This document shows, piece by piece, positions 5,901-21,470 of a stretch of DNA of 64,000 bases. The position numbers and the translations under genes were made by a program. Source of the DNA: Isoetes taiwanensis (Eukaryota > Streptophyta > Lycopodiopsida > Isoetales > Isoetaceae); assembly GCA_021234155.1 (NCBI GenBank), contig JAJEKV010000001.1:1921927-1985926 (forward strand). The letters are read 5' to 3'. The notes beneath the pieces are model-generated. The model saw only the letters and a program-made list of their open reading frames with translations, was not told the DNA's origin and did not search any database. How positions within the stretch are numbered: position 1 is the stretch's first letter; each line of letters opens with the position of its first letter.

Positions 5901-7571
5901 TGTGACGTCCCCTACTGTGATTATCTGGCGACTCCGCAGGTATACAAGCAGGAGTTCATCCCCATACCAGCTCCATGCCATCTGTGGGGCCCTCCACATA
6001 ACTTCAAGAACCGCGGATCGGTTCCAGTGGGAAGAGTGAAGGGGTCATTTTACCCCGTCTCCCTCAGGGCCTACCTAGCTGCAAAAGCGTAAACATACAT
6101 GTCGTTATATAACATAAGCACATATCCACCTCGAAGGGTGGTCCATCCTATCTCTGCATAAACAAGGTGAGCACAATACATATGGGGAGTTCTACCCAAG
6201 GCTCGGACTCATGGGGATGACCGGGACGGCTTGGGTCTCGAGTTCCCTTGGGGACGTAATTCATGGCAATGGATTTGGCTGGCATATGAACATGGCATAG
6301 GGTTGTCCACTCCATCCGCCCCTCCTGTGCACACTTTGCAGAGTAGGCTGAAAAGTGTCGGGACCTGACTGTAGCCCGCCGGATGCATAGCCAAAAGGGC
6401 TATTCCTGGGTTTCATCCTCCCGGTTCGATGGGGCGAGGGAAGGGATCACTCCCTCCGAGAGATCTACATCTTGACTCAAAGGTGACTAGAGGGCCTTTG
6501 CCCGTGATTCGAGTGAACCCACTGGAAAGTGTATACCACTTCACGGGTGTCGAGTCCATGCCTCACCACTTTTCAGTGGTGAGCCATTAGACCTAGTCAC
6601 AATGATCCCTGGTAGGCCTTACACACCAGAGGGATCGTTCAAGAGTCAGGACATGAACCTCCTTCTTAGCCAGTCTGGCCCCTTCACCCACAACCAGGTG
6701 TGGTTCTTGTACCAAGGCGAATCTATAGTGTGCTAGAGAGGCTACTCTAGGAGCATCTACTACCAAGCTTTAGGTCTCTACCCCCTTCCCAATACAAGGA
6801 GTTCATAGAGATACATCATCCATATACATCACGTAAGAACTAAAGAACTATATCTAATCTACATCATAGAGTTAGGTTCTTTAGTTAGAGGTCGGGTATC
6901 TAAAGATCTAGAAGGCTGCTATGGGCAATTTAATAGGCTAAACCTACTGATTCTATATTTGAATTAGGGTTTTAGACTATCTAATTGGCCAAATACCTGA
7001 TCCTTGAGTGGCTCCTCGACTGAGCTCGACCATCCCTTTTTGGCATTTCGAATCGAGGGAAACTAATGGTGCAATTCTCTCGGCGAAGTGCGGGGGGCGG
7101 GTTTTGGTGTTGAGGCAGCCAAAAGCGGGGGTTCCAAAACCCTAGAAACGAAAATTGGGCAAGTTAGGGTTTCCCTCCCTTAATAGACAAGGGGTTGGCT
7201 AGGGTTTCCAATTATCCCCTTTAGGCATGTGGGATAATTGGTAATGGGCCCACTTGCCTTTAATGGCTAGGTGGCAAAATGTGCCCACATGGAAATGTGT
7301 GCCCACATTAATGTGTACATTGGAAAATGTGCACATTAATTGGTACCTATAGGTGTGGCCCACTTGGCATCAAGTGTCCACATGGAAATGTGTGCCCACA
7401 TTAATGTGTACATTGGAAAATGTGCACATTAATAGTTGCACATATTCGCACGCGTTGCCCCCTAGGGCTACCCACGGCTGCGTTAGCGTGTAACGTCGGT
7501 CGAGTGGCGTTAATGCGTGTGACGGCGATGCGATGATCGTCCCGGGACCGTATATCGCGTCCGGAACGCCA
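5901..7571 (-). repeat. 3' LTR of the chromovirus
   Basis: The left copy of the LTR on this strand is the 3' LTR of the minus-strand element. It begins TGTGACGTCCCC at 5901 and ends ...GGAACGCCA at about 7571, so on the minus strand it opens TGGCGTTC and closes in CA. It aligns along its whole length with 17756-19416. Long perfectly matching runs alternate with clusters of indels in GC-rich parts. It has no gene. Confidence 0.9.
7285..7433 (-). repeat. 56-bp direct duplication inside the 3' LTR
   Basis: The 56 bases at 7285-7340 (starting CCACATGGAAATG, ending GCACATTAAT) recur without change at 7378-7433. The same two units are present in the other LTR, so the duplication predates insertion of this copy. 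Confidence 0.9.
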
Positions 7572-7590
7572 CATTCTCCCCACCTTGAAA
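7572..7590 (-). promoter_or_regulatory. Polypurine tract of the chromovirus
   Basis: Read on the minus strand, the bases just before the LTR are AAGGTGGGGAGAATG, a purine run immediately upstream of the LTR start TGGCGTTC. This is the expected plus-strand primer site. A similar purine run lies about 40 bases further inside (near 7620). Confidence 0.75.
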
Positions 7591-8450: not shown

Positions 8451-9665
8451 TCAACATGCACGGGCGATTTCTTGGAGATGACCTTGCCGTCCCATTGCTC
8501 CATAAAGCGTGGGTGCTTGCTTCACTAAATCTTTCTTAAGTACCCATGTCGCGTCTTCCAGCGGTAAGTGTTTCCACTTGACCAAATCTTTGGAGGAATT
8601 CGATCTCCTCATTTTCTTGAAAGCTTTATCAAGAATCAATTGCGGAACTATTTCGGTTGCTCCTCCGTCATTTCCAACAACGTTGGAGAGTCCAAGACCG
8701 TGCGGATTTGGAGTGTGCTTCTTCAACAAACTCACGTGGAAGACCTTATGAATCTTTAGGTGTCTTTGGCAAGTCTAGCTTGTAGGATTGATTACCTACT
8801 CTTGACTATTCGGAAAGGTCCGGCCCACCTTGGAGCAAGCTTCTTGCAATTCGGGTCGAAGCTTCACCGCTTCACCTTGATCTTGAGCCAAACATCCTCT
8901 CCAACTTTGAACTCTCTTAACGTTTCGATGCTTGTCGGCGATGCTCTTACGTCGACTTCTTTCTTGCTAGCAAATACCCTCGAACTTCTTCCACGAAGTG
9001 CCGCATATGGGCCAACATCTCGCTTGCCGAAACTTCCACTTTTTGACGGGGTTGTGCCAAGTGTCTGGAGTTAGGCACTGATAGCCGTAATTGATCATAA
9101 ATGGCGACATTTGGGATGATTCCTGCTTGGTGCTATTGTATGCAAACTCCACCAAGTGAATAAATTCTTCCCACATACCTTGCTTATTCCAGACATAGTT
9201 TCGTAGCATGTCTTCTAAAATCCTGTTGGTCCGCTCCGTTTGGCCATCCGTCTGAGGATGATATGCCGTGCTCATGGATAGCTTTGTCTGAATGGTCGCA
9301 AAGAGGTCTTGCCAAAAGGCGCTCATGAACTTCGGATCCCTGTCGGAGATAATCTCCCTTGGCATGCCATGAAGCCTGAAGATCTCTTTGGTGAAGAGCT
9401 TATTTGTATCCATAGCCGTATTCGTGGTCCCCGCAAGGCACAAAATGTGCCATTTTCGACAACTTGTCGAGCTACTACCATCAAAGCATCTTTCCCTCTA
9501 CGGTCCTTGGGAGTCCCGTGATGAAATCCATCTTTGATCAGCGGCTCTAAGGCCCCCGGAATTGAGCTGTTCCGCTTTGTCTGGCCGACATAGGCGGCAT
9601 TCCTTGATGTAGCGAGCTACTTGCTTCTTCATTCACGGCCAATAATAGGCTGCTGCGCTTTTGAA
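8451..9665 (-). pseudogene. Chromovirus integrase with GPY/F module and chromodomain
   Basis: On the minus strand this reads: a zinc-finger remnant (IKECRLCRPDKAEQL, about 9600); the catalytic core with DALMVV, IISDRDPKFMS (catalytic Asp) and AYHPQTDGQTERTNR (catalytic Glu) in the 9443-8967 piece; a C-terminal module REFKVGEDVWLK and PRWAGPFRIVKS (GPY/F-like), ending SLLKKH; and a chromodomain-like end VPQLILDKAF...LVKWKHLPLEDATW (about 8650-8530). Integrase joins cDNA to host DNA; in chromoviruses the chromodomain steers insertion towards modified histone H3. Several frameshifts break the region, including before the GPY/F part. The fold and order are clear, so identity is firm although function is lost. 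Confidence 0.9.
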
Positions 9666-11239: not shown

Positions 11240-11965
11240 CTATAAGGCTTTAAGTCGCTTGATCTCGCCTCGGAAAGAGATCATGGAACTCGTGATCAGC
11301 TGAGCTATTTGCTTTGGCAACTTGCCGAGCACCGCCATCTTCTTTGCTTTCCTGCTTTCGTGCTCGTCAATCTCAAGCTTGAAGATGTATGCCACCTGTT
11401 CGCTCTTGATGCAATTTGAGCGGTACCGCTTAGAAGACATGCATCGCATGATGGGAACAACTTCTTTACCTCGCGTGATCTCGATGATCTTGCCGGCCGA
11501 AAGTGTTGGGAAGGTCACCTTCCGCTTTCCACAATCGATAATGGCCCCGCTGGTCCAAGGTACTCCATTCCTATGATCAAGTTGTACTTGCCAATGCCCA
11601 TTATACGCCCCCATCCGGATCTTAATCCCCGGCAAGTCGATGTCGGTTAATTCTCTTGGGCAGCCGCGCCTTCTTGCACCACTTGCTAAGACAACGGGCC
11701 TTGGCTTGGACTTTAGCGGTTTCAACTTCAACATTTGAACCATTCTGGGGGATGCAAAGTTATGGCTACTTCCCGAGTCTATCAAGACTATGAAGGACTT
11801 GGCCTTGGCCTTCCCTACTGTGGAGATTACTTTATACTGGCTCTCTGCTTGCTCTGTATCTATTGCGGCAAAGATATGACACTCACCCTGAATGTAGTCG
11901 CGGCCTTCCTCGCCGTCGTCGTCAGACAGGATGTCCCAATCTCCCAACTCATGCCGTATTTGCAC
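11240..11965 (-). pseudogene. Chromovirus aspartic protease region
   Basis: This 241-aa open piece contains SFIVLIDSGSSHNFAS, the retropepsin active-site loop in its DSG form, at about residues 53-68. It would cut the Gag-Pol polyprotein. It lies directly downstream of gag and upstream of RT, as expected. It is not in one frame with RT, so the polyprotein is broken. There are no internal stops in this piece. Confidence 0.85.
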
Positions 11966-11990: not shown

Positions 11991-13136
11991 CTATGGCTTT
12001 GGCTGGAAGCTTTGAAGCAAAGCCGCTTTTCTATGCATTCTGTCTCTTTTCCTTGGGCATCGCTTTTGCAAAAGGATCGCCTTTGCTTTGGAGTAGTTTG
12101 ACCCCTCCTGCTTGTCCTTGAAGGACACCGCTTCTTCCTCCTGTTTCCCACAGTTTGCCACCACCATATGGGGCTCTATTTGGACACGGGTGGCTGCCCT
12201 AGGGCTATAGCTTCCTGTCGCCTTGCCTTTGTCACCGAAATGCCTGCTGCCTGGGCTATTCTGAGGTCCCGTCCCTTGCAAGCTTATAACCTTGGACTCT
12301 GCTTCTGATACTGTCTTAGGGTTTATTGCCCTCACAAGCTTGCGGATCTCCTCATTCAGCCCCTCAATATAGCTTTCTACCGCATGCTTCTCACCCAACT
12401 TTGGCACATACAGCCTCAGTCTCATGAATTCCTCTGTATACTTCTGGACAGATTTGTTGCCTTGCTGCAACCTGTAGAACTGCTGCATCATGCTGGACTT
12501 ATGTTCCCTCGGGACGTAATGGCGCTTGAAGGCTTTAGCAAACTTTCTGAACTTACAAGCATCCCTGCTTAAGCCATGTGCCTTTGCATAACCCTTCCAC
12601 CAAATCCGTGCGGCTCCTTTCAAGTTGGCTGTTGCCACTCTTCCTTTGTCTTTATCCTTCATGCCATAAGCATTGCCGTACTCACTCATTTCGTCCAGCC
12701 ATGCCTCTGCTTCTAATCCTGACCTGTTCTCCCCCGAGAACTGTTCCAGTTTCCGGGCCTTCCATACATTGCCCAACGCGGAATCTACTTTCTTCTGGTA
12801 GTCAGAGGCCCTGGTGTCTCTTTGTCGTCCATCTGGGGTGTTCCTCTGCCTTCCCTCTTCAGTGTTCCTTTGCCTTGCGTCTGTTCGGTCCTGGGCCTGA
12901 TCTTCTTCTTCCTCGGAGTCGGAGTCTGACTCTGAGCTTGAGTCGGAGGAGTCCGAGCTGGGGGATCTTCTTCTCTTGCTCCTCTTCTTGTCTCTTCCTG
13001 TTTTCCGAGCTGATGCTTGTGGCAATTGAGCATTGCCCACCGAACCCGCTCCTGCTTGTGCGGCTAACAGAGCCTTTATCTGCTCAAGGTCCGTCCTCAT
13101 CTGGGATATCTCCTCCTCTGGGGTCATGGGTTCCAT
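11991..13136 (-). CDS. Chromovirus Gag (retrotransposon capsid protein)
   Basis: This is a 381-aa open frame. The N-terminus MEPMTPEEEISQMRTDLEQ is likely coiled-coil. It is followed by a low-complexity SR/acidic stretch (KKRSKRRRSPSSDSSDSSS). The capsid domain of the retrotransposon gag family spans about residues 125-290: AEAWLDEMSEYGNAYG, ARIWWKGYA, FKRHYVPREH, LQQGNKSVQKYTEEFMRL. I do not see a normal CCHC knuckle; the C-terminus (about residues 330-381) is where it should be, but it looks frameshifted (VVANCGKQEEE...KRCPRKRDRMH). Its role is to form the particle that packages element RNA. It is the longest intact ORF of the element. Antisense ORFs over this region are shadows. Confidence 0.85.
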   Translation of the reverse strand: MEPMTPEEEISQMRTDLEQIKALLAAQAGAGSVGNAQLPQASARKTGRDKKRSKRRRSPSSDSSDSSSESDSDSEEEEDQAQDRTDARQRNTEEGRQRNTPDGRQRDTRASDYQKKVDSALGNVWKARKLEQFSGENRSGLEAEAWLDEMSEYGNAYGMKDKDKGRVATANLKGAARIWWKGYAKAHGLSRDACKFRKFAKAFKRHYVPREHKSSMMQQFYRLQQGNKSVQKYTEEFMRLRLYVPKLGEKHAVESYIEGLNEEIRKLVRAINPKTVSEAESKVISLQGTGPQNSPGSRHFGDKGKATGSYSPRAATRVQIEPHMVVANCGKQEEEAVSFKDKQEGSNYSKAKAILLQKRCPRKRDRMHRKAALLQSFQPKP

Positions 13137-13404: not shown

Positions 13405-15034
13405 CTAACTAATCTTGAAATTGCTTGCATCTGACGGGTTGTCCTCAAGGAACTTCTTAACTTGGGCGTTCCTCTTGAATGACCCAAGTTCACTGAAGAC
13501 GCTGGCGGACGAGCCCGCTGCAAACTCTCGCCAAGTCCTCCACTCTGCGGTCGGATGTGAGGGGCGCGGCCCATAATAATCTGCCGCCGATGAGGTATGG
13601 TAAAGTCGAAGAGATCGAGTGCCATTGCTCTCTTGACTAGGACAGCATAGTGGAGCATTTGCCGCTATTGAGCATGCCTGCGAAGCACGAGAGTGCAATC
13701 AGCATGAACACTCCTTCCTGCGCCCACAGGGCTGAATTTGCGGTGTACCACCGCTATTCTCCCCGTCTAGCGGTGGTGTAAGGGTAGTACCTCGGCGACT
13801 TTGTCGTTGTGCGTCATGGATGATTCCCCGCTTGTTTGACCCCCTGTCTATGCCGCCCTGCATAATCGTCGACCTCGATCTCTGTAAGCTCCCGATAATC
13901 TTCAATTGTGGAGTCGACTCTCCTGAGGTCAATTCCTGCTCCTCTTGTTGGGGTGGTGTTGAGGGACTCGGCATCAGGATGCTAGTGGTCTTGCCTCGAT
14001 CCCCATCCGTTCACGAATGGCGAGGGAACTCTTCTTGGATGGGCGGTCTCGGTCTCCATGACTGCCTTATCTTTGCTGTATGCCTGGATGTCGGAAGTCG
14101 CTTCCCCTGTGTAGGTGTCGGCTTCCCTGACTTGAAGCGGGAAGTCTGAGACTCCCCGGACGATGAAGTCGTCCATGTCGGTCTGCCGCAGTTGGTGGAG
14201 TAATTCGTCCAATCTGAGCTCCCTCTCCACACTTTTCGGGGAAGGTTACGGATGTCATTTGAGGAGCAAATACTCCTCTCCGTTGATGATAATTGGGGCT
14301 AGGCTTGTGATGCCTAGCCCGAGTGGGGGAGCAACTCTGATGTTCTGCCGGTTCTGCTCGAAGTTCATCATCTCCTGTTCTGCTTGTTGCCGTTCCTCCT
14401 CTGAGTCGAGCTCCGTGTACTTATCGTCGTCGGACTCCTCTTCTTCATCGTCTTCTCCTTCCTGCTCTTGCTGATACTGCAAAAGCATCTGCTCTTCTTC
14501 CTGTACTGCTATGGGATCCACCTCCATTGGAGGAATAGAGGTTGCCCCCATTGGGTTTTCGGCACGGTGGGATAAGAAAATGGCTAAAGCAGCGGTGTAG
14601 GAGAAGTACTTGGTCCTGTTAGCTGTCAGGACCATGTAGTCGGGTAGCCTCTGCGCTTTGTTGGTTAAGTACTTGGCGATGTTGGGGACATCACCCAAGG
14701 CTGCTTGAAGGGATTGGCGGGGAACAAAGTATCCTATGCAGGGGGGAACCTGGACAAGGGAGGGTTCTACCCTAGCTTGGAACTCTGCTAATACTTGCCT
14801 ATATGCTGGGGTTGCATTCAGCGTAGCTTGGATATCAATTTCCTTCCCGAAGACGCGGAAGATGTCATCGACATCTGCTTCGGCAAAGATGGGCACGGGC
14901 GGCGCACCATCACCCATCGGTGGCCATTGATCTAGCAAGGAAGGGAGTATCAAGCGAATCGCCAGCGCCGGGGATTTGGAAGATAAGCAAAGCAAAGGGT
15001 CGGGGGATTCACCTTTGATCACCGTATAACCCAT
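13405..15034 (-). pseudogene. Extra leader ORF B of the chromovirus, unknown function
   Basis: The family is not recognised. The first piece (15034-14255, 259 aa) has a globular-looking part (ADVDDIFRVFGKEID, YRQVLAEFQARVEPSL, GDVPNIAKYLTNKAQRL) followed by a Gln/Glu/Asp-rich acidic region (EGEDDEEEESDDDKYTELD). Frame changes then continue through 14230-13982 (ERELRLDELLHQLRQTDMDD), 13974-13699 (Ser/Gln/Pro rich) and 13698-13405, ending with VKKFLEDNPSDASNF. An ancestral protein of roughly 540 aa is implied. It sits between PBS and gag, where chromoviruses normally have no such gene. It may be an accessory ORF or captured sequence. Confidence 0.55.
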
Positions 15035-15472
15035 GAGAGTTCAACGGAGGGGTGTTTTTTGGACCATTTGTGTACGTATACTTAGGGGTTAGGGGTGTTT
15101 TTAGGCACTGATTTGGAGCAATATCTATACACAGAGGGGTCAAATTGCCTTTTAAAATTGCGTATACAAGGGGGTTTTTTTGCTACCCTCCGAACGCAGA
15201 TGCCATACCCCCCTTATGTATAAGTGCATCCCCCGGGAGCAGTGGAGAGCAAACTTGCAGGGTGCTAAATGAAAAATGATGGGCCTATTTATAGAAAAGG
15301 GAAAAACCCTAATTTTTGGATGACCTAGAATTTGCTGGAGTTGGGCGATTCTGACCTATTAGGAGGTGCAATTGAGGGTTTGAAGGCTGATTTTTGGTTT
15401 AAAGCATGCTAAGAACAACTAATGAACCTATTGCAACAACCGGAGGTCATTTGGTGAAGAAAATGGTGCGAG

Positions 15473-15668: not shown

Positions 15669-15735
15669 GTCTCACACGTTGAGCCCAGCCCGAAAATGAG
15701 AATCTCATTTTTACGTCCGGCGCGACGTGTGAGAC
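15669..15735 (+). repeat. Leader hairpin repeat, copy 2 (most perfect)
   Basis: This 67-bp unit has perfect inverted ends GTCTCACACGT and ACGTGTGAGAC. An inner near-palindrome, AAAATGAGA-A-TCTCATTTT, sits between them. It could fold as a nested hairpin in RNA or DNA. Confidence 0.85.
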
Positions 15736-15899
15736 ATCGTCTCAATTTTGCTCAAAACTCCAATTTTATCAAAACAAAAGCTAGAATTCTATATCTTAAC
15801 TTAATTAAGCTAGATTAGACATATTATTTATCCACAAAATTCTTTATATTAACAAAAATTTCTGTTATTTACAAAAATCTCAAGGCGTTCTCCCTTGAT

Positions 15900-17149
15900 G
15901 TGCGGGCAAGATACATATCCACGCCTCATGAGGGTAACCCTCTTGGCGTGTCTTGGCGGCCGCCGAATCTTCAAAATGCTGCACTATTTTCGCCTCCGCA
16001 TTTGCCTCCCGTAGTTAATGCGGCATGACATCTCGTCGGTTACTCGCGATGTCGTGTTGTACTCTGCATGACTTCACCGGACCAAGCGTTGGAGGCGGTG
16101 CAGAGGGATCAAGAGTCCGTAACTCTTCGGAAGTGCGGATCTCCTTGAGAGCTCTCGTCCTCCGACTTCTTCTTCTTGCCGCTTCTTCCACGGTGCTTTC
16201 GGGGGAGGCTTGGGCTGGGTGGTGGCGGCTTCAAGGTTTGGCTTCTTGTGGGATGTCGCCTTGATTGTTCTCACCACTGTGCTCTGGTAATAGGCATTGT
16301 AGGCCTCCCGCCCGCCATGTAAGCGTTGTGCTCCTTGATCCTCTTCGATAGACCCTTACGGGGTCTATCACATAACTTTCCCGTTGCGGCGCGGGGCTTT
16401 GACTCTGTCCCGTCGGGGAATGGTGGGGGCCTTGCGGCTGTCCAGCTGCTGCCCATCGGCGCCACCGCTTTCGGGTACCTCCTTCTCCACAGGCGGGGTT
16501 TTGAAGAGCTCGCCCCTGCGGGTTGGGGGCGTAATCCTCGTCCGAATCGTCGGTGGAAGGCGGGGTCTCTTCGCCGATGGTTCGTTGATGGCGGGGCCCA
16601 CCGGCTCGCTTCCGGCCTTCACAACTTTTCTTACGCCGCGCCTTGATGCCCTTGGCCTTCCTCTTCGGACCCCGGCTATGTCTTCGGTTCTTAAATCCTC
16701 TGCTCCCGTGGCGCTCCTTGTCTTCATACTTGCGATGAAGGCGGAGGTCCGCTTCTTCAGCGGGGTAAGCTTTGGCGAGCTTTGCTCTTGTCTCTCCTCC
16801 TCCTCTTGCGAGGCCGGGCCTAAGCTTCGATTTGTTGTTCGAATGATCATTTGTCCCCTCTCGCTCCGTTCCTCCCTGCTTCTCCTTTCCTCCTCGTGAT
16901 CTCTTGAGGATTTCTTTTGCATGATGTCCGGGCTCCTCCTCTATGATCTCCGTCGATCGCTCCGGTCGAAGTCATCCCCCTCGCTGATGAAGATTCCCCG
17001 ATTGAGAAGGCATTCGAAGTGCCCTTTGAATGTTGGGGTCCTCTGGCGTTGGAGGATGTGCTTGGGCGAGGCTTTCTAGCAGTTTGTTTCGTAAGGGCCA
17101 TGTTCGACGGTTCGCCGTCGGAGTTCGCGCCAAAAGATCGCCTTGGCAA
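15900..17149 (-). pseudogene. Extra leader ORF A with histone H3 tail-like N-terminus and AT-hook
   Basis: This is a broken accessory ORF just inside the PBS. A methionine at 17101-17099 starts MALTKQTARKPRPS, matching the histone H3 N-terminus (MARTKQTARKST) at nine of the first ten residues; the frame is open back to 17149. The rest is unlike H3: Ser/Asn-rich, then basic. After a frame change the 16922-16368 piece carries RSREERSERGQ, KKRTSAFIASMKTRSATG, an AT-hook-like RRGRPRASRRG (about 16670-16638) and a nuclear-signal-like AKRPRLPP. Basic/Pro-rich pieces continue at 16465-16271 and 16277-16074. A nuclear chromatin-binding or chromatin-mimicking protein is my inference. The identity of the H3-like run is read directly from the codons. 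Confidence 0.6.
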
Positions 17150-17279
17150 GGAGGCGAATTTTTCTAAGCGGTGGTGAAAATGGGGGTCGAGGTCTATTTA
17201 TAGGGGCAATTTTTAGGTCAAACTTGAAACTACCTTTTAGGTTATCTAGAGCACCTAAAACACCTTAATCTAAGCAAAG

Positions 17280-17344
17280 GTCTCACCGTTAAGCCCAGCC
17301 CGAAAATGAAAAGCCCATTTTCTGTCCCGGGCGGCGTGTGAGAC
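17280..17344 (+). repeat. Leader hairpin repeat, copy 3
   Basis: This 65-bp unit starts GTCTCACCGTTAAGCCCAG and ends GGCGTGTGAGAC. Its centre, CGAAAATGAAAAGCCCATTTT, matches copy 2 with changes. Confidence 0.8.
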
Positions 17345-17479
17345 ATGGTGGAATCCACTATCAATTTTGCTACTTTTTAATTATGTAACTTGCTAATTTC
17401 TCTTTGATTCTTAGCTCTAATTTAGAATTATCAAGCTATTTTCTTGTAATTTACAACTTTTGGTGTGTTTAATTTGAAT

Positions 17480-17547
17480 GTCTCATCAAGTTTGGCCCGG
17501 CCCAGAAAATGAAATTCTCATTTTACGTCTGGCGCGACGTGTGAGAC
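17480..17547 (+). repeat. Leader hairpin repeat, copy 4
   Basis: This 68-bp unit runs from GTCTCATCAAG to GACGTGTGAGAC. Its inner palindrome, AAAATGAAATTCTCATTTT, matches copy 2 closely, as does GGCGCGACGTGTGAGAC at its end. All four copies are in the same orientation. Confidence 0.8.
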
Positions 17548-17737: not shown

Positions 17738-17754
17738 CCTCGACTCTGATACCA
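17738..17754 (-). promoter_or_regulatory. Primer binding site (initiator-Met tRNA type)
   Basis: On the minus strand, immediately after the LTR end, the sequence reads TGGTATCAGAGTCGAGG. The first eleven bases match the complement of the 3' end of plant initiator methionine tRNA (TGGTATCAGAG), the usual primer of plant Ty3/gypsy elements. Confidence 0.92.
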
Positions 17755-17755
17755 C

Positions 17756-19416
17756 TGGATGGCCCCTACTGTGATTATACGGCGCACTCACCGTATACAA
17801 ACAGGGAGTTCATCCCCATACCAGCTCCATGCCGATCTGAGGGCCCTCCACATAACACCGCAACCGCGGATCGGGTTCCGAGTGGGAAGAGTGAAGGGGT
17901 CATTTTACCCCGTCTCCCTCGGGGCCTACCTAGGCTAAGCGTAAACATACATGTCGGTATATAACATAAGCACATATCCACCTCGAAGGGTGGTCCATCC
18001 CTATCTGCATAAAACAAGGTGAGCACAATACATATGGGGAGTTCTACCCAAGGCTCGGACTCATGGGGATGATCGGCTTGGGTCTCGTGAGTTCCTTAAG
18101 GACGTAATTCATGGCAATGGATTTGGCTGGCATATGAACATGGCATAGGGTTGTCCACTCCATCCGCCTCCTCCCAGGCACACTTTGCAGAGTAGGGTGA
18201 AAAGTGTCGGGACTGGATCCGAAGCCATGGGATGCATAGCCAAAAGGGCTATTCACGGGTTTCATCCTCCCGGTTTTGATGGGGGCAGAAGGGATCACTC
18301 CCTCCAGAGATCTACATGCCGACTCAAGGTGACTAGAGGGCCACCGCCGTATTCGAACGAACCTTTGGAAAGTGTACACCACTTCACGGTGTGTCGAGTC
18401 CATGCCTCACCCTTTCGGTGGTGAGCCATTAGACCTAGTCACAATGATCCCTGGTAGGCCTTACACACCAGAGGGATCGTTCAAGAGTCAGGACATGAAC
18501 CTCCTTCTTAGCCAGTCTGGCCCCTTCACCCACAACCAGGTGTGGTTCTTGTACACAGGCCGAATCTATAGTGCGCTAGAGAGGCTACTCTAGGAGCATC
18601 TACTACCAAGCTTTAGGTCTCTACCCCCCTTCCCAATACAAGGAGTTCATAGAGATACATCATCCATATACATCACAGAAGAACTAAAGAACTATATCTA
18701 ATCTACATCATAGAGTTAGGTTCTTTAGTTAGAGGCTGGTATCTAAAGATCTAGAAGGCTGCTATGGGCAATTTAATAGGCTAAACCTACTGATTCTATG
18801 ACTGAATTAGGGTTTAGACTATCTAATTGGCCAAATACCTGATCCTTGAGTGGCTCCTCCTGACCTGAGCTCGACCATCCTGCTGAAACGCTCGAATCGA
18901 GGGAAACTAATGGTGCAATTCTCTCAGGCAGAGTCGGGGAGGCGGTTTTGGCCGTTGAGGCAGCCAAAACAGGTTCCAAAACCCTAGAAACGAAAATTGG
19001 GCAAGTTAGGGTTTCCCTCCCTTAATAGACAAGGGGTTGGCTAGGGTTTCCAATTATCCCCTTTAGGCATGTGGGATAATTGGTAATGGGCCCACTTGCC
19101 TTTAATGGCTAGGTGGCAAAATGTGCCCACATGGAAATGTGTGCCCACATTAATGTGTACATTGGAAAATGTGCACATTAATTGCACCTATGGGTGTGGC
19201 CCACTTGGCATCAAGTGTCCACATGGAAATGTGTGCCCACATTAATGTGTACATTGGAAAATGTGCACATTAATAGTTGCACATATTCCTGGCACGTTGC
19301 CCCCTAGGGCTACCCACCTGGCTACACGTTAGCGTGCACGTCAGTCGGAGTGGCGTAATGCGGCGTGGCGGCGATGCGATAATCCCCACGGGACCGTGAT
19401 TACGTCCCGAACGCCA
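17756..19416 (-). repeat. 5' LTR of the chromovirus
   Basis: This is the right-hand LTR, starting TGGATGGCCCC at 17756 next to the PBS and ending ...GAACGCCA at about 19416. It aligns with 5901-7571 throughout, including the internal 56-bp duplication (19127-19182 and 19219-19274). It would carry the element promoter; I could not place a TATA box or start site with confidence. Confidence 0.9.
19127..19274 (-). repeat. 56-bp direct duplication inside the 5' LTR
   Basis: These are the same two 56-base units as in the other LTR, at 19127-19182 and 19219-19274. Confidence 0.9.
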
Positions 19417-19421
19417 CGGCA

Positions 19422-21470
19422 TACATAAGACTACTGAAGTTAAAACGGAATAAGAACCTGCTGCAACATCAATGGGGTATGGCAAAATTGCTGAAGAAAC
19501 AGCCCCAAAGATTTTGGAGGGGATTCAAAGGGAAGGGAGGGGAGAATATGAAAACAGGGAATGAGCAGGACAGTATTGGAACAGCCGGATGGGAGAGATA
19601 CCTGGAGAAATTGTATAAGACAGGGGCACCCCCTGTATCAATACCAATGCTGCAGGATTCAGATAAACCATGCTTCAACATGCAAGAGGTAATGGTAGCC
19701 CTAAACAGGATGGCTAACCACAAAGCCCCGGATCTATACGGTCTGACCGTGGAATTACTGAAATGTGCTAAGACAGAAATTGGCAGACAGGTCATGGACA
19801 TTTTCAACGGCATAATACATACAGGGCTTCCAGATAGGTGGACATACAATAGAGTCATACCTCTACATAAGGCAGGAAGCAGGCAAGATCCAGGAAACTA
19901 TAGAACAATAATGGTGAGTTCCATTTTCGCAAAGTGGTTCGGAAAGGCACTGGATAACAAATTAAAGAAATGGGCAGAAAAGGGAAACATGAGAGCACAA
20001 GGGCAAGCAGGGTTCAGGCCGGAACACTCAACCATAGACCATCTAGTAACCCTTCGGATATTAACAGAATAGAACAAAACACAGGGAAGAAAGATCATCT
20101 GCTGTTTTGTAGATTTCAGAAAAGCATTCGACACAGTCCCGAGGGAGAAGCTATTACAAAGGTTGATGGACATGCAAGCCCCAAGAAACATGGTAAGATC
20201 GATTGCAAGACTATACCATAGGGTATATGCCAGGATAGAGCAAGAAGGACAGCCAATAAACTATGACATAGGCGTTAAATAGGATTGCCCGCTATCCCCA
20301 ACTCTATTTGGGATATACATAGATGCTTTGCAGGGCTACATAGCAAAACATCAAGGGGAAGAATACGCCCCTACGTTAGGAGACACGAAGGTACCGATTA
20401 TGCTATACGCTGATGATCTGAGTATGATGGCCACAAAAAATAAGGAGATGCACAGACTGCTAAAAATTCTAGAACAATTCTGTGAAAAAATCGGGCTAAC
20501 GGTAAATCTAGCAAAAACTAAGATAGTCATCTTTGGCCATAAGAACAGGCATAGACCCTTCAGATATAAGGAAACAGAAATAGAGGAAACTACGGAATAC
20601 AGATATCTAGGGTACGACGCACATGGCATAGGAAAATGGGCTAAGGGTGCAGACACCAGGTTCCAATCAGCTATAGGGAGTTATTTCAATATGAAGAATT
20701 TCTGCAGCAAAAGCAGAATAATTGATTGGGACATCAAATGCTACTTATTCAGTGCAGTAGTAGCTACTACCCAATTATATGGGGCAGAAGCTTGGGGGCC
20801 AGGCCTAACAGACAGAAAATGGGAAAAACAGGAAGGAATCCTAAGGCAATGGCACAGACAGGAATTTAAAGTACGGACAAATACGCCACTGACAATCATG
20901 GTCCTCGAAACAGGGCAAAAACCAATGGAGGTGAGAGCATGGGAGAGGGCCATAAGGTACCTGATTAGGGACAATGCAGGAGAACTCCAGGGGAAATTGT
21001 CTAGTATTGCAATCACCGAGTCAGCAAAATCACACATTCTCATAGGCAACGGATGGTTTAAAGATGTGGCAAATTGGACCAGATAGATGGGATTAAACCT
21101 GAGCGATCTAATAAACGAAGGGCAGTGGAATGAGGAGTGGGCAGACAGAGCCACAAGAGCATGGCTGCAAAAACACACAGGACCCAAGACAACCTGACTC
21201 ATGACAGTTTTTAACCCAGATTAGCAAATAGGACATCAGATGTATCGGGATAACATACTGGGAAAAACCAGAAGAGATATCTTGACTAGATTCAGGATGG
21301 GGAGTCATGATCTGAGAATCGAAAAAGACAGGTGGAGGGGAATAGACAAGGATGACCGGATATGCAGAATCTGTGACAATGGGAGAGTGGAGGATGAGAA
21401 CCCCTGATTAACGATTGCCCGATATACGGAGACATCGAGACAAAATGTAAATATAAGATGGGGGAACCGG
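19422..21470 (+). pseudogene. LINE-A reverse transcriptase and C-terminal CCHC region
   Basis: A single frame holds for about 2 kb. RT motifs in order are HKAPDLYGLTVELLK, NRVIPLHKAGSRQDPGNYR, GQAGFRPEHSTIDHL, FVDFRKAFDTVPREKLL, DCPLSPTLFGIYID, and IMLYADDLSMMA (catalytic YADD intact). YGAEAWGPGL follows, and a C-terminal zinc-type motif ICRICDNGRVEDEN near 21370. Six in-frame stops interrupt it (20070 TAG, 20280 TAG, 21084 TAG, 21195 TGA, 21222 TAG, 21405 TGA), with no frameshift. The stop at 20280 replaces the Gln of the conserved G-V-K/R-Q-G-C-P motif. The role would be target-primed reverse transcription. Confidence 0.9.

Follow-up and report, generated by a model that had tools for sequence, protein, structure and literature searches.

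A Ty3/gypsy leader ORF with an H3-like N-terminus

Why would the leader of a plant retrotransposon encode a peptide that reads like the start of histone H3? The peptide lies in a 64-kb stretch of Isoetes taiwanensis DNA (the window), where a first-pass annotation had described it as an H3-like tail on an otherwise non-histone protein of a chromovirus, and had left the choice between mimicry and capture of an H3 fragment undecided. The minus strand of the window holds a Ty3/gypsy element bounded by two LTRs, the 5' LTR at 17763-19417 and its partner, the 3' LTR, at 5909-7572 (both minus strand). The pair is 91.2% identical, has a K2P of 0.048 with gaps left out, and differs by 76 mismatches and 59 gap openings. 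Small gaps are numerous relative to mismatches here and are perhaps residual long-read errors. Since the assembly combines Nanopore reads with Illumina polishing, as described in the accessible text of PMC8566536, and since the LTRs differ by so many gap openings, the assembly itself may have introduced some of the frame breaks seen in the window copy. A clear target-site duplication was not found at the flanks of this copy.

Directly 3' of the 5' LTR we read a primer binding site, TGGTATCAGAG (17744-17754, minus strand), which we take to be of the initiator-tRNA-Met type; the same word was found in 9 of 15 loci checked, and three of the six loci without it have short upstream flanks. The coding region, also on the minus strand, comprises gag at 11991-13136 (PF03732, E=2.1e-18), an aspartic protease region at 11240-11965 (PF08284, E=2.4e-4, above cut-off), an integrase core piece at 8967-9443 (PF00665, E=2.2e-4, below the curated cut-off) and a chromodomain piece at 8451-8735 (PF00385, E=2.9e-5, just below cut-off). 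A relative, L059, has the domain order RVP, RVT_1, Integrase_H2C2, Chromo (Chromo E=7.5e-11). The window element is a Ty3/gypsy chromovirus, its reverse transcriptase being placed in the domain order from this relative.

The primer binding site and gag are separated by a leader of ~4.6 kb with two cassettes, each a TATAAATA box followed by an ORF. At 15669-15735, 17279-17346 and 17480-17547 this leader carries three copies of a ~70-nt motif with CGTGTGAGAC- and GAAAATGA-like words; the motif precedes both cassettes and possibly represents promoter parts. Just outside the 5' LTR, plus-strand ORFs at 19479-21086 resemble, by eye, pieces of a LINE-type reverse transcriptase.

ORF 1 of the first cassette starts with MALTKQTARK, read as ATGGCCCTTACGAAACAAACTGCTAGAAAG from 17101 (17072-17101, minus strand). 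Its TATAAATA box (17195-17202, minus strand) stands 101 nt upstream of the ATG, and the box is found 101-112 nt upstream of the ATG position in all 28 loci examined from the first genome search described below (L001-L028). The listed ORF at 16847-17149 opens upstream with a TTG, and the ATG at 17101 lies in frame inside it; by direct reading and the ORF list, the first open piece from this ATG is 84 aa long (16847-17101, minus strand). A charged linker part continues in another frame (16368-16922, minus strand; a listed ORF, to which the ORF of an intact relative, L018, matches by tblastn in several frames), and a relic of the H3 fold, with shifted frames and stops, lies at 15885-16160 on the same strand (start approximate). 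When the window was searched with the L018 ORF by tblastn, the two best stretches gave E=1e-29 and 5e-26 and the linker was also covered; a fold-only query gave E=1e-13 (L001). The earlier statement that the ORF beyond its start is not H3 arose because the reading frame of this copy is broken, and it is true of that frame only. On the window frame alone Pfam reports no histone match, and a protein database search with the broken window pieces returned no matches. Sub-cut-off Pfam matches of window pieces (YjbE, E=0.0017; DUF3997, E=0.39) were set aside as composition effects.

The H3-like start itself is real. In a six-frame scan of the 64 kb for ARTKQTARKS, the tail site agrees at 8 of 10 residues and is the only place above 5, with 13 other places at 5. 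Across the genome, DNA encoding exactly ARTKQTARK occurs at 1,064 sites and the backwards pattern at none. A chance match was rejected on these two grounds, in agreement with the first-pass annotation.

Intact relatives end in an H3 fold

A search of the source genome (1,658,258,908 bases) with the 84-aa piece gave 34 places besides itself at E<=0.001, and the 28 loci examined include the window copy. MARTKQTARK is exact in 10 of the 28; the rest carry at least one residue change or are broken by indels, and eight loci are interrupted within the first 10 codons. Three loci (L010, L018 and L021) hold ORFs of 418-427 aa that start MARTKQTARKPRRS. The C-terminus of the L018 ORF matches PF00125 with 97.2 bits (cut-off 26.4; E=1.1e-27), the L010 ORF matches it with E=3.9e-27, and the best 60 of 175 PDB matches of ORF 1 are all histone H3 (top E=1.2e-28). 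The tail is thus not attached to a non-histone protein, as had been supposed: a complete H3 fold closes the ORF of intact relatives.

Intact ORF 1 encodes ~376-439 aa: MARTKQTARK, then 246-305 mostly charged, variable residues, and then the H3 histone fold. When it is aligned with host canonical H3, the first nine mature residues, a GGxxPR-like motif and the fold are shared, and the 246-305 residues have no counterpart. From the second G of GGxxPR to the E of REIR there are 36-38 residues in 12 intact ORFs, compared with 37 in H3. These 12 were chosen for an open frame, a choice that favours working copies but in which the tail was not a criterion; three came via the linker of the first query, and L018 is the same locus as L072. 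Judged from the alignment, ORF 1 is a full H3 gene into which a large segment has been inserted between K9 and GG. Because the full fold and the H3-like spacing from GGxxPR are present in intact relatives, the choice between mimicry and capture falls to capture of an H3 gene.

The intact copies that the first-pass annotation had proposed to look for thus exist in the source genome, and family members with an intact ORF keep the H3-like start. Ten of the 12 have ARTKQTARK, one has V for K9 and one P for R8. The Leu reported in place of R2 does occur in some copies, the window included, but all 12 intact ORFs have Arg. The residue that follows K9 is P in eight of them, V in four and S in none, and ORF 1 is without recognisable K27 and K36 contexts. 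In L083 and L085 an extra ATG directly precedes the start, and the protein could begin MMARTK.

When the L018 ORF was used to search a protein database, none of the best 120 of 2,462 matches covered more than 40% of the query, and nine of the listed matches that were examined each carry at least two H3 stretches. The AlphaFold model of ORF 1 is poor (mean pLDDT 54.7); a Foldseek search with this model returned nucleosome entries with poor TM-scores and is given no weight here.

Copy number and genomic setting

We sampled 30 of the 1,064 ARTKQTARK sites: two are canonical H3 genes and 28 are not. With canonical H3 as query, 15 of the 150 scored places matched along their entire length at 99-100%, the next being at <=89%; this search misses intron-split genes. 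An H3-fold match (E<=0.01) lies downstream of the tail in 53 of the 56 non-canonical loci of L001-L058, window copy included, and at this threshold none was found downstream in L011, L045 and L046. LTR-like sequence of the window element lies upstream at 49 of the same 56 loci (in some short or partial) and at neither of the two canonical ones. First-look candidates for two fold types numbered 9,373 and 8,324, figures that are not copy counts, and all 150 scored matched in each. The H3-like gene is therefore carried by a mobile element present in many copies.

Two clusters of sites were noticed. At G000:C217:120970-132586 three ARTKQTARK sites lie ~5.8 kb apart and have an identical 27-nt sequence; at G000:C445:69970-238578 there are again three, a group that includes two canonical H3 genes.

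Selection on tail, linker and fold

Codon-level dN/dS across copies, the second check proposed at first pass, was carried out within the source genome and reveals purifying selection on both tail and fold. For the fold we used 17 uninterrupted retrotransposon folds and two host H3s, keeping the 60 of 171 pairs with dS of 0.1-1.5; the remaining pairs were dropped as saturated or too close. The maximum dN/dS over the 60 pairs is 0.099, and the median over the 59 pairs between retrotransposon folds is 0.037. A separate comparison over 90 fold residues gave 0.09 for L010/L021 and 0.02 for L018/L021, and 0.65 for L010/L018 because the L010 end is altered.

A search by tail pattern is biased, and therefore the tail was tested on copies found via fold or linker. 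Searching with the fold alone gave 15 loci, among them the already known L018, L023, L003 and L008; a tail region can be recognised in 13 of the 15, and eight encode the exact ARTKQTARK. The fold-found L072, L079, L083 and L085 have a frame of more than 400 aa from the first Met, and all four start MARTKQTARKP; in the next two copies, with frames of 389 and 377 aa, the tail lies in another frame. Six copies of a distant fold type, chosen for a long open frame, all start MARTKQTA, one continuing with P for R8 and one with V for K9.

Over the 12 intact ORFs mean pairwise identity is 0.97 for residues 1-10, 0.43 for the linker, 0.62 for the GGxxPR stretch and 0.77 for the fold. Synonymous and nonsynonymous codon differences, in which one change is counted many times because they are pairwise, number 298 and 22 in the tail, 2647 and 8522 in the linker, 763 and 1013 in the GGxxPR stretch, and 1989 and 1310 in the fold. 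Median dN/dS over the usable pairs is 0.0 for the tail, 0.165 for the linker, which is thus also under some constraint, 0.104 for the GGxxPR stretch and 0.012 for the fold. The K4/K9 peptide and the fold are maintained by selection, and the middle of the protein changes faster.

Fold residues and phylogeny

R83, R116, T118, C110, D123 and L126 are kept in all 17 uninterrupted folds, and R69 and R72 in 16 of 17; several of these are H4-interface or DNA-contact positions of H3. Two further positions are altered: R63 of H3 is replaced by P in every one of the 17 folds, and K79 by N, D or R in all but one. With both positions changed, nucleosomes containing the protein could therefore be unusual or absent.

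In a tree with canonical and centromeric H3s, the 17 retrotransposon folds group together in a single clade (support 100/99). Their identity to host H3 is 51-58%, and most are 52-59% identical to rice CENH3. The simplest explanation for this ORF 1 type is a single old capture, after which the gene diversified together with the element. CENH3 and CENP-A are likewise H3 variants with divergent tails, and the IRHF, LLIP and R.T.E-like residues of most retrotransposon folds resemble plant CENH3. Unlike the folds described here, however, CENH3 and CENP-A are encoded by the host, and their loop 1 carries an insertion, which is found in none of the 17.

A second ORF and a second H3-bearing repeat

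The second cassette has its TATAAATA box at 15286-15293 (minus strand, direct reading), and the largest open piece of its ORF 2 spans 259 aa at 14255-15034 (minus strand), the relic seeming to run to ~13405. In five intact relatives ORF 2 is 504-508 aa long with TATAAA 122-124 nt upstream. We paired 150 fold places with 147/148 ORF 2 places, all among the matches listed: 47 pairs emerged, every one on the same strand with ORF 2 939-1557 nt downstream, and no other arrangement occurred within 3 kb. Unpaired places mean little because both lists hold only the matches listed. Pfam gives no match for intact ORF 2 and the PDB no significant relative (two weak matches, E 0.93 and 3.2), and its fold is not predictable with AlphaFold (mean pLDDT 31.1). 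That ORF 2 is a second histone, as its C-terminal relic looked H4-like, was rejected, there being no match in Pfam and no histone among the two weak PDB matches. Searching the window, L059 and L001-L058 with H4, H2A and H2B by tblastn gave chance-level matches only (best E 0.40).

The canonical H3 query also brought up other sequences: 135 of the 150 scored places are 72-89% identical to it, most from residues ~8-36 to 135. Three such loci, L093 (G000:C1018:19365450-19367033), L094 (C1088:3246250-3247852) and L095 (C1074:5798330-5799900), represent a second H3-bearing type. Their ORFs of 411-420 aa start MANTKS or MANIKS, have a fold close to canonical H3 and contain no ARTKQTARK. The flank of this second type gave no match to the window element. 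Downstream of L093, on G000:C1018, a distant ORF 2 relative lies at L096:262-1437: one open piece resembles ORF 2 residues 207-438 (BLASTP E=3e-8, 24% identity; hhalign probability 88%), and a second open piece has no significant ORF 2 match. An H3-like ORF and an ORF 2-like gene therefore occur together in two distant types, at one locus for the second. The second type shows that repeats in this genome can keep an H3 fold even when the K4/K9 tail is absent.

The integrase chromodomain

The first-pass annotation had suggested that the integrase chromodomain of the element might bind the tail. Both are indeed found in one element. At the cage positions, however, the window and L059 have I, W and L (alignment by eye), where HP1 has Y, W and Y. 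Self-binding is thereby weakened, since two of the three cage aromatics are missing. As far as the accessible text of PMC12786077 describes them, group II chromodomains are without a cage and act by mechanisms not yet known, and heterochromatin targeting is still seen when they are fused to fluorescent proteins.

Discussion

The motif is probably the N-terminus of a whole H3 variant in a TATA-box cassette, captured by a chromodomain Ty3/gypsy family and most likely directed against H3K9-linked silencing. The starting point for this reading is what the copies themselves establish: the architecture, the high copy number, a single retrotransposon clade among the folds tested, and purifying selection on tail and fold. 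A retrotransposon would have captured an H3 gene long ago, between primer binding site and gag; a large insert that evolves fast would then have been added to it between K9 and the tail GG, and the resulting variant would have spread and diversified together with the element. Its protein may pair with host H4 and enter tetramers or nucleosomes, where a long tether would present the K4/K9 peptide, with S10 missing and no K27 or K36 context to be recognised. H3K9-linked silencing of the element would most likely be countered or redirected in this way, with ORF 2 as a possible partner. A bolder and rather doubtful version is that the element builds its own chromatin: ORF 1 protein with host H4, and perhaps ORF 2 protein, would coat new copies, K4 and K9 would be displayed while S10, K27 and K79 could not be read or written, and insertions would resist normal silencing.

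The main rival to deposition in chromatin is that the protein acts outside it as a free decoy, titrating H3K4/K9 writers, readers or H3 chaperones through tail and fold and so shielding the element. The tail is the most conserved part of the protein (0.97 as against 0.43 for the linker) and is borne on a long charged linker, and the change of R63 to P together with the loss of K79 could weaken nucleosome assembly. Strong purifying selection also acts on the fold, however, including residues that contact DNA in H3, which a tail decoy would not need, and we regard a decoy as the less likely of the two. It is improbable that the captured gene was, or acts like, a CENH3 and guides the element, or chromatin formed on it, to centromeres: the IRHF, LLIP and R.T.E-like residues and the 52-59% identity to rice CENH3 speak for it, but the loop 1 insertion is absent, the tail peptide is that of canonical H3, and the retrotransposon folds are not joined to CENH3 in the tree.

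Binding of the integrase chromodomain to the methylated tail of the element's own H3, which would target integration, looks quite unlikely with one of three cage aromatics kept in the window and L059, even though chromodomain and H3 ORF occur in one element and cage-less group II chromodomains still reach heterochromatin (available text of PMC12786077). Many copies are broken, the window copy included, as expected of a functionless H3 merely copied along with the element; the median dN/dS of the fold, 0.037, and the tail's pairwise codon differences, 298 synonymous and 22 nonsynonymous, make such a passenger very improbable. Finally, the window frame alone, with no Pfam histone match, could be taken for an unrelated protein that gained an H3-like N-terminus by chance or convergence. 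Intact relatives end in an H3 fold with H3-like spacing from GGxxPR on, and we give this possibility almost no weight.

Mobile elements that carry H3 have been described in fungi. The accessible text of PMC3538342 reports an H3-like gene, H3L, on a hAT DNA transposon of Pyrenophora tritici-repentis, with 26 very similar and recent H3L genes and ESTs. Like the gene described here, H3L is an H3-like gene present in many copies on a mobile element, beside an ORF of unknown function; unlike it, H3L belongs to a fungal DNA transposon, and no large tail insertion is described in that text, whereas the Isoetes gene sits in a plant LTR retrotransposon, has divergent types and is under strong purifying selection. 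According to the available part of PMC6710886, a hAT transposon has also amplified histone H3 in P. fijiensis as well as in five other fungal genomes; these fungal copies are RIP-inactivated except for the original, whereas many Isoetes copies are open and under selection. Unlike a DNA transposon with terminal inverted repeats and a hAT transposase, the Isoetes element is an LTR retrotransposon.

Plant LTR retrotransposons with extra ORFs beside gag-pol are known, an example being an m6A demethylase in orchid Ty3/gypsy elements, and the Isoetes element shares this arrangement with them; no histone is named in the accessible text of these sources (PMC6317226, PMC12786077). The word 'histone' has no occurrence in the available text of PMC7264820, a paper on additional ORFs, and a term search of the main text of the two Isoetes genome papers likewise did not find it. 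No histone in an LTR retrotransposon was found in the literature searched, a body that most subscription papers fall outside. The proposed logic, histone-like sequence turned against host chromatin, is shared with viral histone mimicry as described in the accessible text of PMC10208167, but there it is mimicry and here the element has a full H3 fold. A transposon-carried H3 is thus already in print from fungal hAT elements, and the Isoetes element is its LTR-retrotransposon, plant form.

Transposon silencing acts largely via histone H3 marks. A retrotransposon that has a conserved H3 of its own, in which the K4/K9 peptide is left whole but most other parts of the tail are exchanged, would let nature itself test directly which of the marks on H3 are relevant to this conflict, and the divergent natural variants of ORF 1, being under selection, are a ready experimental object. 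The conserved H3 variant gene suggests that genomic parasites may make a chromatin protein of their own.
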